From: Fusobacteriales bacterium | GTDB lineage: Bacteria; Fusobacteriota; Fusobacteriia; Fusobacteriales; Fusobacteriaceae | DNA: 64,000 bases | Direction of reading: 5' to 3' | Assembly (NCBI GenBank): GCA_020063625.1 | Contig: JAICDD010000002.1 | Coordinates: 23,345 to 87,344, forward strand | Part shown: piece after piece, positions 29,212 through 36,249 of the stretch | How positions within the stretch are numbered: the stretch's first letter is position 1 | How the letters are laid out: the number at the start of each line of letters is the position of its first letter | Made by a program: the position numbers and the translations under genes | Notes under the pieces: model-generated | What the model saw: only the letters and a program-made list of their open reading frames with translations | The model's database searches: none | Told to the model about the DNA's origin: nothing

Positions 29212-30099
29212 ATGCTAACAAAATTTTTTCAAAAACAACTTATGATGAGGAAAGTACTTTATTCTCTCATTCCAATCTTTATTTATTCAATTTATTTGCA
29301 TGGACTAAAGTTCATACTATCAACAATTTTTATTTTTTTATTTGGATCTATTACTGAATATTTTTTTACAAAATCACAAAATAAAAAAATATCAGAAGCT
29401 GTACTTGTAAGCTGTGCTTTATATGCATTATCAATTCCACCATATGCACCTATTTGGATAAGTAGTATAGGAATAATATTTGGTATTACTTTTGCTAAAA
29501 TGGTATTTGGAGGATTTGGTAGAAATGTATTTAATCCAGCTATTGCTGCAAGATTATTTGTCTATATATCGTTTCCAGTAGCATTTAATTCATATGCAGT
29601 AGATATAACAGCAGGAGCAACACCACTTACTATATTTAGAAATGGATATACATTTTCTAAAATTAGATTATTTTTAGGTAATTATTTAGGAGCATTTGGA
29701 GAAACATCTAGTTTGTTAATAATATTAGCAGCTATTTATTTAATTTATACAAAAACTGCCAATTGGAAACTTATGATTTCTACATTGTTATCTTTTTCAA
29801 TTTTAAATTCAATATTATATTTTGCTAATATTATAAATATAGACCCATTATCATCTATATTTACAGGAAGTTTTTTATTTGTAACTGTATTTATGGTTAC
29901 AGATCCAGTTACTGCACCTAAACAAAAATTAGCTATTTGGATGTATGGAATATTGATAGGACTGTCAATCTCACTTATAAGAAGTTTTTCACTATTTCCA
30001 GAAGGAACAAGTTTTGCAATACTTTTAGGTAATAGTTTTGCTCCTTTATTTGATGAATTAAGTAAAAAAATAAAAGAGAGAAAGGGGGCAAAAGCATGA
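29212..30099 (+). CDS. nqrB: NqrB/RnfD family subunit (short, 295 aa)
   Basis: VFGGFGRNVFNPAIAAR, AGATPLTIFRNG (flavinylation Thr context), TDPVTAPKQKLAIWMYGILIG. Confidence 0.88.
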   Translation: MLTKFFQKQLMMRKVLYSLIPIFIYSIYLHGLKFILSTIFIFLFGSITEYFFTKSQNKKISEAVLVSCALYALSIPPYAPIWISSIGIIFGITFAKMVFGGFGRNVFNPAIAARLFVYISFPVAFNSYAVDITAGATPLTIFRNGYTFSKIRLFLGNYLGAFGETSSLLIILAAIYLIYTKTANWKLMISTLLSFSILNSILYFANIINIDPLSSIFTGSFLFVTVFMVTDPVTAPKQKLAIWMYGILIGLSISLIRSFSLFPEGTSFAILLGNSFAPLFDELSKKIKERKGAKA

Positions 30100-30683
30100 A
30101 AAAAGATAATATAGTTTATACAGTGATATTTTCAACTATAATAACATTTATTTTTGTGTTTCTTTTATCTCTGACATATCATGCTACAAAAGGAACTGTA
30201 GAACGAAATGAAAAATTATTTGAAATAAAAGCATTTTTAAATTCGGCGGGTTATGATTTAAACACTATAAGCAATTATGAAGAATTTTTTAATAAAAACT
30301 TTAAAGAAGAAAAAAATAATATATGGTCAACAAATAAAAATGGAGAAAAAATAATTATTTATAAATTCTCTGGTAATGGATTATGGGGAACAATTTATGG
30401 AGTAGTGGCATTTAATGAAAATTTAGATAAAATAATAGGACTTGAGATAACATCTCATAGTGAAACTCCAGGACTTGGTGGAAGAATTGAAGAAGATTGG
30501 TTTAAAAATCAGTTTAAAAACCAAAAAATCAATGATGATTTTAAAATTGTAATGGGAGATGGAAAAGGTGATTTTGAACCAAATGATAATAGTGTTGATG
30601 GAATAACAGGAGCAACTCGTACTACAGAATCACTTCAAAAAATTATTCTAGATTCATATAAATTTGTAAAATCAAATCGTTAG
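30096..30683 (+). CDS. nqrC: NqrC/RnfG family FMN-binding subunit (195 aa)
   Basis: HSETPGLGGRIEEDWF...SVDGITGATRTTESL (covalent FMN motif). Confidence 0.88.
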   Translation: MKKDNIVYTVIFSTIITFIFVFLLSLTYHATKGTVERNEKLFEIKAFLNSAGYDLNTISNYEEFFNKNFKEEKNNIWSTNKNGEKIIIYKFSGNGLWGTIYGVVAFNENLDKIIGLEITSHSETPGLGGRIEEDWFKNQFKNQKINDDFKIVMGDGKGDFEPNDNSVDGITGATRTTESLQKIILDSYKFVKSNR

Positions 30684-30692
30684 GAGGTAACT

Positions 30693-31283
30693 ATGAGTAT
30701 ACTTAAAGAGAATTTATGGGAAAACAATCCAGTTTTTGTACAAATATTAGGGATATGTAGTACACTAGCTGTGACAAATAACCTTACAAATACATTTATA
30801 ATGACAGTAGCACTTATATTTGTTACATCATTTTCTAGTTTAACAGTATCATTATTAAAAGATTATATACCTAAAAAAGTAAGAATGATAATTCAAACTT
30901 TAATTATAGCATTTTATGTAATATTTGTAGATATATTATTACGTGCATATTTACCAAATATTAGTAAAGCTCTTGGGCCTTATGTAGGACTTATTATTAC
31001 AAATTGTATTATCATGGGAAGAGCAGAAGCATTTGCACAATCAAATCCACCAATTTTATCATTTTGGGATGGATTTACATCAGGACTTGGTTATATGTGG
31101 GTACTTATGATAATAGCATTTTTTAGAGAGTTTTTAGGATTTGGTACATTATTTGGTATAAGTGTAGCACCTAGTGGATTTACAACTTGGACTATTATGA
31201 TAATGGCTCCTAGTGCTTTCTTTTTATTAGGTACACTTATTTGGATTAGTAAAAGTATTATGCTTAAAAAGGAGGTTAAATAA
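30693..31283 (+). CDS. nqrD: NqrD family subunit
   Basis: ENNPVFVQILGICSTLAVTNNL, VGLIITNCIIMGRAEAFA. Confidence 0.9.
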   Translation: MSILKENLWENNPVFVQILGICSTLAVTNNLTNTFIMTVALIFVTSFSSLTVSLLKDYIPKKVRMIIQTLIIAFYVIFVDILLRAYLPNISKALGPYVGLIITNCIIMGRAEAFAQSNPPILSFWDGFTSGLGYMWVLMIIAFFREFLGFGTLFGISVAPSGFTTWTIMIMAPSAFFLLGTLIWISKSIMLKKEVK

Positions 31284-31876
31284 TGAGTCCAGATATTAGC
31301 CCTATTGTATTGTTTTTTGCATCAATATTTACAAGTAATATTTTATTAGCAAATTTTCTAGGGATGTGTTCATTTATATCTATATCAAAAGATATGAATT
31401 CATCAAATGGTCTTGGAATGGCAGTAACTGCTGTACTTACTATTACTGCAGCTATTAACTGGGTAGTTATTAATTATATACTTATTCCTTTTGACCTATT
31501 ATATCTGAGATATATTGTATTTATTGTAGTAATTGCAGCTACTGTACAAATATTAGAAATGTTAATTGATAGATTATCACCTAGTCTTTATATGGCACTT
31601 GGTATATTTTTACCTTTAATTACAGTGAATTGTGCTATATTGGGAGTATCTTTATTTATTGAAATTAGAAAATACACATTTATACAAACTCTTTTTTATG
31701 CATTTGGAGCAGGGCTTGGATGGTGGCTTGCTATAATGCTTCTTTCAGCTATACAAAAGAAAATAGCTAATGCACCAGTACCAGCAGGATTAAAAGGACC
31801 TGGAATTACATTAATTACAATAGGATTTATGGCAATGGCATTTATTGGTTTTTCTGGAATGCTGATTGTACAATAA
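31283..31876 (+). CDS. nqrE: NqrE family subunit
   Basis: NFLGMCSFISISKDM, VQILEMLIDRLSPSLYMALGIFLPLITVNCAILG. Confidence 0.9.
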   Translation: MSPDISPIVLFFASIFTSNILLANFLGMCSFISISKDMNSSNGLGMAVTAVLTITAAINWVVINYILIPFDLLYLRYIVFIVVIAATVQILEMLIDRLSPSLYMALGIFLPLITVNCAILGVSLFIEIRKYTFIQTLFYAFGAGLGWWLAIMLLSAIQKKIANAPVPAGLKGPGITLITIGFMAMAFIGFSGMLIVQ

Positions 31877-31893
31877 CATAAAGGAGGTAAATT

Positions 31894-33000
31894 ATGGAGT
31901 TTATTATAGCACCTCTAATTATATCAATACTTACTGGAATACTTGCTGCTATTATCTCAATTACAGATAAAATTGTAAATAATTATGGTGAAATCACTAT
32001 TTCTATAAATAATGGAAAAAAAGAAATAAAAATAGATGGTGGAGAAAATCTTTTGACAACATTATCTTCACAAGAGATTTATTTACCTTCAGCATGTGGT
32101 GGAAGAGGAAGTTGCGGTGCATGTAAATGTAAAGTAACAAGTGATGTAGGAGAATATCTACCTACTGAAATTCCATATCTTACAAAAGAAGAGATGAAGG
32201 AAAATATAAGACTAGGATGTCAAATAAAATTGAAAAAAGATATCTCTATTGAAATACCAGAAAGTTTATTTAATGTAAAAAAATATGAAGCTACTGTTGA
32301 AAAAATAGTAGATGTAACACATGATATAAAAGAGGTATTATTTAATCTAGGTGATGAAGAGGTAAACTTTACTGCTGGAATGTATATGCAACTATGTGTA
32401 CCACCATATGATAAAATTAAAAGTGAAACTCAAAGGGCATACTCTATATCATCAAAACCTAGTGATAAAAATCATATTGAATTATTAATAAGATTAGTTC
32501 CAGGTGGAATTGCTACAACATGGGTACATACATATCTAAAAGAGGGAGATAAAGTAAAATTAATAGGACCATTTGGAGAATTTCAGGCAACACCTACAAA
32601 TAGTACAATGATATGTGTAGCTGGTGGTTCTGGTATGGCACCATTTAAATCAATGCTTTATCATATGTATGAAAATAATGTTAATGATAGAGAGATATGG
32701 TATTTCTTTGGAGCTAGAACAAAAAAAGATTTATTTTATTTAGAAGAACTTGCCGAACTTCAGAAAAAGTGGCCTAATTTTCATTTTATTCCAGCATTAT
32801 CTGAGCCAGAAGGAGAAGATTGGGAAGGAGAAACAGGTCTTATTACAGATGTTTTAGATAAATATTTAAAAACAATAATCGAACCAGGATATAAAGAAGG
32901 ATATTTATGTGGAAGTCCAGGTATGATAAATGCATGTAATAATGTAATGACAGCAAATGGAATAAAACTTGAAAATATTTATTATGATAAATTTGCTTAA
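31894..33000 (+). CDS. nqrF: NqrF family NADH:acceptor reductase subunit (2Fe-2S + FAD/NAD domains)
   Basis: SACGGRGSCGACKCKV ferredoxin motif, RAYSISSKPSD FAD motif, YLCGSPGMINACNNVM C-term. Confidence 0.92.
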   Translation: MEFIIAPLIISILTGILAAIISITDKIVNNYGEITISINNGKKEIKIDGGENLLTTLSSQEIYLPSACGGRGSCGACKCKVTSDVGEYLPTEIPYLTKEEMKENIRLGCQIKLKKDISIEIPESLFNVKKYEATVEKIVDVTHDIKEVLFNLGDEEVNFTAGMYMQLCVPPYDKIKSETQRAYSISSKPSDKNHIELLIRLVPGGIATTWVHTYLKEGDKVKLIGPFGEFQATPTNSTMICVAGGSGMAPFKSMLYHMYENNVNDREIWYFFGARTKKDLFYLEELAELQKKWPNFHFIPALSEPEGEDWEGETGLITDVLDKYLKTIIEPGYKEGYLCGSPGMINACNNVMTANGIKLENIYYDKFA

Positions 33001-33463: not shown

Positions 33464-33487
33464 AAAAAGAGCCATATGGCTCTTTTA
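33464..33487. terminator. Bidirectional intrinsic terminator
   Basis: AAAAAAGAGCCATATGGCTCTTTTA. Confidence 0.85.
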
Positions 33488-33613
33488 TTTACATGTTGAT
33501 GTGATTAAAGTAGCTTTTTTAGCAATACTTTTTTTATTCTTTTCTTGCTGTTTTTTTTGATACTTTTCCTTTAACTCTTTTAAATTTTCACGTTCTTTTC
33601 TTAAGATACCCAT
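33485..33613 (-). CDS. Small basic protein candidate, 42 aa
   Basis: MGILRKERENLKELKEKYQKKQQEKNKKSIAKKATLITSTCK; GGGGG RBS 8 nt upstream of ATG; follows aroB-ppx on the same strand; not in supplied ORF track. Confidence 0.5.
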   Translation of the reverse strand: MGILRKERENLKELKEKYQKKQQEKNKKSIAKKATLITSTCK

Positions 33614-33632: not shown

Positions 33633-35603
33633 TTATGAAATCATTATACCCTCTAATATATCGTTTTCAGATACTAAAATAACCCTTTTATTAAAATATT
33701 TAAGCAATATTTTTAATATTAAAGTACCTGAAACTATAACTTCTGCTCTTTTTGGATGTAATCCAATAATCTCTTTTCTTTCATCTATAGATTTTGACAT
33801 AAATAAATTTAAATTTTTTTCAATCTCATCTATTGTTAATAAATAGTTATGAATCTCATTTGTATCATATTCTTTTAACCTTTTTAATACTGATACTTGA
33901 GTAGTTACTGTACCAGCTACTCCAATTAGTTCATATTCATCAAAATTAATATGTTTTAGTTCAGTTTCATTTAACATATTATAAACAAATTTTTCCATTT
34001 TTGCAATATTTTCTTTATAATTTTCATTTTTAAAAAATTTTTCTTTTAATCGAACAGAACCAAAGTTAAAACTTTTAATAAATTCAATGTTTTCTTTGTT
34101 TCCAATAATTATTTCAGTACTTCCTCCACCTATGTCAATAGCGATAAATTTTTTATTATTATCAATTTCAGATAAAATACCATTAAAACAATAAGTTCCT
34201 TCTTGTTCCCCACTAATACACTCAATATTTAAATCTGTTTCCTTTTTAACTTTGTTAATAAAAATATCTTTATTACTTGAATCCCTTGTAGCAGATGTTG
34301 CACATACTTTAATATCAGTGATTTTATAATTATCAATTATATTTTTATAATTTTTTAATACATTTACTGTTCTCTCAATAGCTTCATCTTTTAAAAATCC
34401 ATTTTTATCTACATCTTCACCAAGTCTAGTTATTTCCATAAGTTTTAAATATTTTTTATTAATATATCCATTATAAAGTTCAGCTATAAATAATCTTACA
34501 CTATTTGTTCCAATATCAATTATAGCACGAAGTTTTGTATCAGTGATTTTATCATATAATTCTTTTAATTTTTCTATTTCTAAATCAATAAATTTTACTT
34601 CACCAAGTTTTGGACACATTACAAGTCTTAATTTATCACTATTATTTTTTTTATCTTTTTTAAAGATATTTATCATTTTTTCAAAATCATATTTTGGTAT
34701 TAAATAGGACATTTTTAATTTTTTAAATAATTCTATTTGCTTATCAACTACTTCTTTTTCAACAATTCCTAGCTCATAACCAAGTTTATTAACAAAATTC
34801 ATACCAAGAATTACAGCTTCACCATGAGTATAAACTTTATAATCAGTTATTTTTTCAATTACATGCCCATAACTATGTCCATAATTAAGAGCAGCCCTTA
34901 TTCCATTTTCTTTTTCATCTTGAGAAACTACATTAGCTTTTGTTTGGCAACTATGAAGAATCATTTTTATAAAAATCTCTTTATCAAAATTATTTATTTT
35001 TTCATGATTTTCAAATATAAAATTATAAAAATCTTTGTTAAAAGTAGCAGCCATTTTAACTATTTCACCAAGACCACTTTTAATTTCTCTACTCTCTAAT
35101 GTTTTTAGTACATTAATATCCACTAAAACTAATTTTGGCTGATGAAAACTTCCAATTATATTTTTTGCTTTATAATTTATAGCTACTTTTCCACCAATAC
35201 TAGCATCTACTTGAGAAAGAAGAGTAGTAGGTACTTGAATAAAATCAATTCCTCTCATAAAAGTAGCAGCAACATAACCTGATAAATCACATACTACTCC
35301 TCCACCTAATGATATTATTAGACTTTTTCTATTAAAATTATTTTCAAGCATAAAATCATAGATTGGTAGTACTGTATCTAATTTTTTATATTCTTCTCCA
35401 TCTTCGATTGTAAATGTAAATACATTATCTTTTTTGTTTAAAGAATTTAAAAATTTCTCTAAATATAAAGGACCAACAGTAGTATTAGTTATTATTAGTA
35501 TTTTTTTATAATCTTTTATATAATTATTTATTTCATTAAAAATATTTTCTCCTATCAAAATATCATAACTTTTTTCTTTTAAATCCACCCTTAGTTTTTC
35601 CAT
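33633..35603 (-). CDS. aroB: 3-dehydroquinate synthase fused to Ppx/GppA phosphatase domain
   Basis: N-term AroB (ISLGGGVVCDLSGYVAATFMRGIDFIQVPTTLLSQVDASIGGKVAINYKAKNIIGSFHQP); C-term Ppx/GppA (LRAIIDIGTNSVRLFIAEL, AIDIGGGSTEIIIG, GVAGTVTTQ); one continuous 656-aa frame. Confidence 0.93.
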   Translation of the reverse strand: MEKLRVDLKEKSYDILIGENIFNEINNYIKDYKKILIITNTTVGPLYLEKFLNSLNKKDNVFTFTIEDGEEYKKLDTVLPIYDFMLENNFNRKSLIISLGGGVVCDLSGYVAATFMRGIDFIQVPTTLLSQVDASIGGKVAINYKAKNIIGSFHQPKLVLVDINVLKTLESREIKSGLGEIVKMAATFNKDFYNFIFENHEKINNFDKEIFIKMILHSCQTKANVVSQDEKENGIRAALNYGHSYGHVIEKITDYKVYTHGEAVILGMNFVNKLGYELGIVEKEVVDKQIELFKKLKMSYLIPKYDFEKMINIFKKDKKNNSDKLRLVMCPKLGEVKFIDLEIEKLKELYDKITDTKLRAIIDIGTNSVRLFIAELYNGYINKKYLKLMEITRLGEDVDKNGFLKDEAIERTVNVLKNYKNIIDNYKITDIKVCATSATRDSSNKDIFINKVKKETDLNIECISGEQEGTYCFNGILSEIDNNKKFIAIDIGGGSTEIIIGNKENIEFIKSFNFGSVRLKEKFFKNENYKENIAKMEKFVYNMLNETELKHINFDEYELIGVAGTVTTQVSVLKRLKEYDTNEIHNYLLTIDEIEKNLNLFMSKSIDERKEIIGLHPKRAEVIVSGTLILKILLKYFNKRVILVSENDILEGIMIS

Positions 35604-35611
35604 ATATCCTC

Positions 35612-36130
35612 CTACATTTCTTCTATATAAATTTTTTTTATAATGTCTGTAATTTCATCAAGGTCTTCATTTTTATTGTATACTTCAAAGTCACAGCTAT
35701 TTTTATATATTTCTTTTCTTTCATTTAGTAAATTATTTATTTTTTCATAAGTATTATCACAAATAAGTAGAGGTCTTTTATTTGGTCTTTTCATAACTCT
35801 TTTATAGATATTATCTACACTTGTTGAAATTAGACAAATATTAGCATGTTTTCTTAAAGAAAGTAAATTATTTTCATTTAAAATAGTGCCCCCACCAGTA
35901 GCAATAATAGTATTACTTAGTGCTTCACACTCTTTTATTATTTCTTCTTCAAGTTGTCTAAAATATTTTTCACCTTTTTCTTTAAAAATTTCATTTACTT
36001 TCATATTTTCTCGTTTCATTATTTCATAGTCTAAATCAAAAAAATTCATATCAATTTTTTTTGCTAAAACTTTACCTATTGTGGTTTTTCCTACCCCCAT
36101 AAAACCAATTAAAGCTAAATTTGTTTTCAT
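35612..36130 (-). CDS. aroK: Shikimate kinase
   Basis: ALIGFMGVGKTTIGKVLAKK, FFDLDYEI, ATGGGTILNE. Confidence 0.93.
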   Translation of the reverse strand: MKTNLALIGFMGVGKTTIGKVLAKKIDMNFFDLDYEIMKRENMKVNEIFKEKGEKYFRQLEEEIIKECEALSNTIIATGGGTILNENNLLSLRKHANICLISTSVDNIYKRVMKRPNKRPLLICDNTYEKINNLLNERKEIYKNSCDFEVYNKNEDLDEITDIIKKIYIEEM

Positions 36131-36249
36131 AGACTTTACCTCGTTATTTTAATTTACACTTAGTATATCATTTATTAGTTGTATTTTTCAAGTAAAAGGA
36201 TATAAATAAGGAAAATAAAAAAAGAATCCAAAGGATTCTTTTTTATGGT

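Follow-up and report, generated by a model that had tools for sequence, protein, structure and literature searches.

3-Dehydroquinate synthase (DHQS or AroB; TIGR01357; PF01761 plus PF24621) has several solved structures as a standalone enzyme (PDB 3okf, 5hvn, 5eks). It is also found within multi-enzyme chains, namely the bifunctional AroK-AroB proteins (NF010556, NF010627) and the fungal pentafunctional AROM protein, both of which join steps of one pathway. The short Ppx/GppA phosphatase of Aquifex aeolicus (PDB 1t6c, 2j4r) is a free protein of two domains without the C-terminal HD-like part. In the Fusobacteria, these two kinds of enzymes occur on one chain, where AroB is joined to an enzyme from outside its pathway, whereas aroK remains a separate neighbour. 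The AroB half is a whole domain with all catalytic and zinc residues and a fold matching the solved structures (TM about 0.9), although it bears a C-terminal phosphatase and belongs to a clade distinct from the phylum's standalone AroB. The Ppx half shares the two-domain form, the catalytic motifs and 31-32% identity over its whole length with the Aquifex protein, but it stands behind AroB. No description of an AroB-Ppx/GppA fusion was found in the searchable literature, with subscription journals and database architecture pages outside this scope, and a paper on the distribution of shikimate-pathway genes (PMC3018139) makes no mention of it. This agrees with the initial annotation, which knew of no standard architecture of this kind. 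To judge from the searchable literature, the fusion has not been described before; the families of its two parts are well known.

The window, i.e. the whole stretch of 64,000 nucleotides analysed here, carries the fusion gene together with the following features, all on the minus strand and numbered by window positions.

33465..33486, minus strand: intrinsic-terminator-like hairpin with a T run, after the unit (two found against 0.2 expected in shuffles)
33485..33613, minus strand: 42-aa ORF between the fusion gene and the terminator-like hairpin
33633..35603, minus strand: aroB::ppx fusion gene of 656 aa, starting with ATG and free of internal stops
33633..34535, minus strand: Ppx/GppA half, residues 357-656
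34533..34577, minus strand: junction, residues about 343-357, continuous, without an in-frame start codon
34554..35603, minus strand: AroB (3-dehydroquinate synthase) half, residues 1-350
35612..36130, minus strand: aroK, shikimate kinase, 172 aa, a separate ORF 8 bp upstream of the fusion gene
36162..36191, minus strand: promoter-like site before aroK, TTGAAA-18-TATACT with TG, consensus match only

The fusion ORF is read from 35603 to 33633; its coordinates had been given correctly in the initial annotation, where the strand was absent. The uninterrupted 656-aa frame was taken there for a complete AroB followed by a complete Ppx/GppA domain, and the profile searches bear this out. The Pfam domains DHQ_synthase (residues 64-175), DHQS_C (177-320) and Ppx-GppA (388-655) are all matched far over their cut-offs, and the protein passes the NCBIfam aroB equivalog (368.7 bits against 305) and the Ppx/GppA phosphatase family PF02541 (197.3 bits against a gathering cut-off of 27). 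It falls below the curated cut-off of the exopolyphosphatase subfamily TIGR03706 (246.9 against 307) and below those of GppA NF008260 (102 against 624) and E. coli PPX NF008108 (97 against 864), the match to the latter two being confined to the N-terminal 300 positions. The profiles of bifunctional AroK-AroB, NF010556 and NF010627, are likewise missed (180 and 188.5 against 560 and 565), and a PHROGs scan for phage families gave no match to the fusion protein. A sequencing or assembly artefact joining two ORFs, which an indel hiding a stop at the junction might have produced, has a negligible probability: a hidden stop is excluded, nothing favouring such an artefact was found, and it is refuted by relatives, since the same unbroken join exists in 39 other genomes and in Fusobacterium vincentii SB055. 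Relatives do not always carry separate genes; most of those in the family have the fused form.

By protein search, an uninterrupted full-length fusion is present in 40 of 98 Fusobacteriota genomes, which comprise that of the window, another 38 from its family and one from the sister family. It occurs in 12 of the 14 genus groups of the family, including that of the window, and identity to the window protein ranges from 89% to 33%. The F. vincentii SB055 fusion has 664 aa and is the sole match in its record, and hence the only AroB and the only Ppx seen there. This 2.1-Mb record (L172, NZ_CP084075.1) is labelled plasmid pSB055A in PLSDB, and by its size it is probably a chromosome. A scan of genome contigs gave, among the matches listed, one fusobacterial fusion from an uncultured Fusobacteriaceae bacterium (L072), and has little bearing on the presence of the fusion in other phyla. 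None of 79 non-fusobacterial AroB or Ppx loci is fused. The strongest matches in 300 genomes from the phylum of G099 were all AroB alone with no fusion, and 299 genomes from the phylum of G101 yielded nothing at the same strict threshold in a search without a positive control. The fusion is real and old, and it has been kept by most Fusobacteriaceae.

Both halves of the window protein have the residues of active enzymes. The zinc and substrate residues of the AroB half are complete (E180, H243, H260, K139, K183, R236, N240, H247 and K319), with roles as established for DHQS structures. The zinc ligands and the substrate and NAD residues are complete in 37 of the 40 fusions and are lost in the lineage g12. 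The Ppx half is of the short form, lacking the C-terminal domains that E. coli PPX/GppA possess, and has the catalytic Glu E468 and the DIGTNS, DIGGGSTE and AGT motifs; none of the 40 fusions departs from D363, R370, R440, E468 or the DIGGGS-E motif. Outside g12, nearly all fusion genomes have a single AroB, the exception being G038 (L061), in which a second, standalone AroB lies in a gene cluster of DAHP synthase and AroQ. The genes aroA and aroC score over the cut-off in the window genome and in nearly all other fusion genomes outside g12; the exceptions, G044 without aroA and G007 without aroC, are both incomplete genomes. The intact site, the single AroB and the presence of aroA and aroC mean that the fused AroB is very probably a working DHQS, judging from genome content. 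In the window genome, where it is the sole AroB found and aroA, aroC and aroK are present, the AroB half would be the only 3-dehydroquinate synthase of the cell.

Measured between two conserved anchor residues, the linker has 42-43 residues in 33 of the 40 fusions; four others have 46, and the three g12 members have 62. In the AlphaFold2 model of the window protein (mean pLDDT 93.1, pTM 0.86, about 94 in pLDDT through the join), the C-terminal AroB helix 343-353 leads straight into the Ppx strand 356-364, and Foldseek matches this model to AroB structures (TM by target about 0.9) and to Aquifex Ppx/GppA (0.8). The join is short, near-constant in length and predicted to be rigid; no extra regulatory domain or motif was seen at it. 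Independent translation of Ppx from a start within the gene was considered and rejected: only 1 of the 40 has an in-frame start with a Shine-Dalgarno (SD)-like site near the join. The phosphatase is therefore probably produced solely in fused form. A join of this kind would deliver both activities in a 1:1 ratio. DHQS is known as a dimer, and by extrapolation to the fusion such an AroB dimer would hold two Ppx modules.

The fused AroB halves form one clade in the tree (SH-aLRT 100), and multiple independent fusions are accordingly not favoured. The fused Ppx halves behave differently. Interspersed with them are standalone Ppx from g6, from part of g5, from G045 and probably from g14, and the AU test rejects monophyly of the fused Ppx (p 9e-12). 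Gene order gives the same picture at two places. G045 has aroK-ppx where G000, G039, G044 and G062 have aroK-aroB::ppx. In the genus group g5, HtpX and ppx-selD-selA-selB in G025-G029 correspond to HtpX and aroB::ppx-selD-selA-selB in other genomes of the group (HtpX was labelled on inspection by eye, whereas profiles identified selD, SelA and SelB), and the g5 genomes with standalone ppx have aroB in a separate aro operon. In the sister family, the fusion gene of G062 stands after aroK and a gene that groups with DAHP synthase (labelled by eye), and its three downstream neighbours recur behind the standalone ppx of the f4 genomes G088 and G090. Trees and synteny together indicate, as the simplest account, a single fusion of neighbouring genes followed by several deletions of the AroB half. 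The neighbouring aroB and ppx would have been joined once, before Fusobacteriaceae and the sister family diverged. The number of losses is uncertain, with six state changes on a quick tree, of which at least three are forced by well-supported branches. Lineages that lost the AroB half have Ppx alone and a second type of AroB elsewhere in the genome, except G035, from which AroB, aroA and aroC are all missing. The standalone Ppx of L045, L047, L070, L158 and L160 (G025, G027, G029, G026 and G024) have about 90 extra C-terminal residues, for which no Pfam match was found in the one examined (L045).

The lineage g12, a single genus (G049, G050 and G051), has taken another course. It lacks aroC, of aroA only a weak, MurA-like match is left, and its AroB half has lost most of the zinc, lysine, arginine and histidine active-site residues, whereas its Ppx half remains intact. 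When G049 is compared with G050, the AroB half aligns without gaps over 343 codons with a dN/dS of about 0.17 (dN 0.253, dS 1.49), the same as that of the Ppx half (dN 0.221, dS 1.27), by Nei-Gojobori counts with dS near saturation. The model retains the DHQS fold, and the linker, about 20 residues longer than in the other fusions, is predicted to be disordered (pTM 0.56). From sequence and model, the g12 AroB half is best described as a pseudoenzyme that is fused, folded and under purifying selection. Since both the site and the pathway are lost and selection persists, it appears to be kept for a purpose other than DHQS activity, which points to a structural role. The selection could reflect support of the phosphatase, a new function, or just the need to fold. 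The longer linker, if disordered as predicted, weakens the idea of a strictly rigid platform.

As for the substrate of the Ppx half, PPK1 and PPK2 are both missing from 23 of the 40 fusion genomes, and RelA/SpoT is found in all 40, which makes pppGpp a likelier substrate than polyphosphate. An obligatory link to polyphosphate made by PPK is not favoured for the same reason, although polyphosphate from other sources would be compatible with the absence of PPK genes. Genomes with PPK1 often have a separate, different Ppx near it. This is not so in the window genome, where PPK1 is present and no second Ppx was found, so polyphosphate could be the substrate there. In g14 (L041, L043, L153, L154 and L165), the orthologous standalone ppx is near a convergent 355-aa RelA/SpoT-domain gene, with an acylphosphatase gene between the two in most loci. 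The Ppx half would be an active short phosphatase, and genome content suggests pppGpp or another nucleotide as a likelier main substrate than polyphosphate made by PPK.

The account that we consider probable is a true bifunctional protein, in which both halves are active and made 1:1 and AroB also serves as a structural platform. Coupling of aromatic biosynthesis to the stringent response or phosphate status, which the initial annotation had suggested, is a less likely reading. Several lineages that dropped the AroB half and kept Ppx at the same locus speak against obligate coupling. Together with the g12 pseudoenzyme, they show that neither half depends on the chemistry of the other. A partial link, to (p)ppGpp rather than to polyphosphate, receives some support from the PPK and RelA/SpoT counts and from the g14 neighbourhood. 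In its regulatory form, coupling would mean that the Ppx half senses or clears (p)ppGpp or polyphosphate and thereby tunes DHQS, or that NAD or DAHP bound to AroB tunes the phosphatase. The rigid conserved join, the universal RelA/SpoT, the standalone Ppx of g14 and the retention of the g12 pseudoenzyme would fit with this, but the halves have parted several times with both activities staying in the genome, and the join bears no further regulatory domain or motif; such tuning is considered unlikely. A related and somewhat less doubtful possibility, still a tentative one, is that the AroB fold has turned into a module, structural or regulatory, of a (p)ppGpp phosphatase; it would double as DHQS in most Fusobacteriaceae and be purely a pseudoenzyme partner in the one genus that lost the shikimate pathway.

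The bifunctional enzyme with an AroB platform is better supported than coupling, and its main rival is a neutral fusion, that is, neighbouring genes that were joined and fixed by chance and were kept, with no advantage, since neither half could be lost while fused. The two halves serve unrelated functions, the deletions show that they are dispensable to each other, and the same fusion is unchanged across differing gene neighbourhoods, all of which favours this view. On the other hand, a linker near-constant in length over deep divergence, the near absence of internal starts and the strong purifying selection on the dead AroB half of g12 speak against it, and a neutral origin without benefit is accordingly held to be improbable.

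If the bifunctional account is true, a phylum that includes human oral pathogens has an as yet undescribed enzyme of two functions, with central aromatic synthesis and an alarmone- or polyphosphate-type phosphatase on one chain. The family provides built-in controls in its fused, split and pseudoenzyme versions, which allow direct tests of the value of fusion and of the role of a dead AroB. An aroB knock-out in a fusion-bearing Fusobacterium would also remove the phosphatase, and the resulting phenotypes could be misread.

The co-encoding with aroK proposed for the fusion gene fits with the 8-bp spacing on the same strand. Promoter-like sites are not commoner in the region than expected by chance, and no relatives were grouped with the 42-aa ORF in the clustering of locus genes. 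Genes resembling an Rnf electron-transport cluster (by eye) occupy 29212-33000 of the window, convergent to the fusion operon. In many Fusobacteriaceae (e.g. L066, L068, L065 and L036), the fusion gene or a standalone ppx lies directly before selD-selA-selB, often with an acylphosphatase gene or a small ORF in between.
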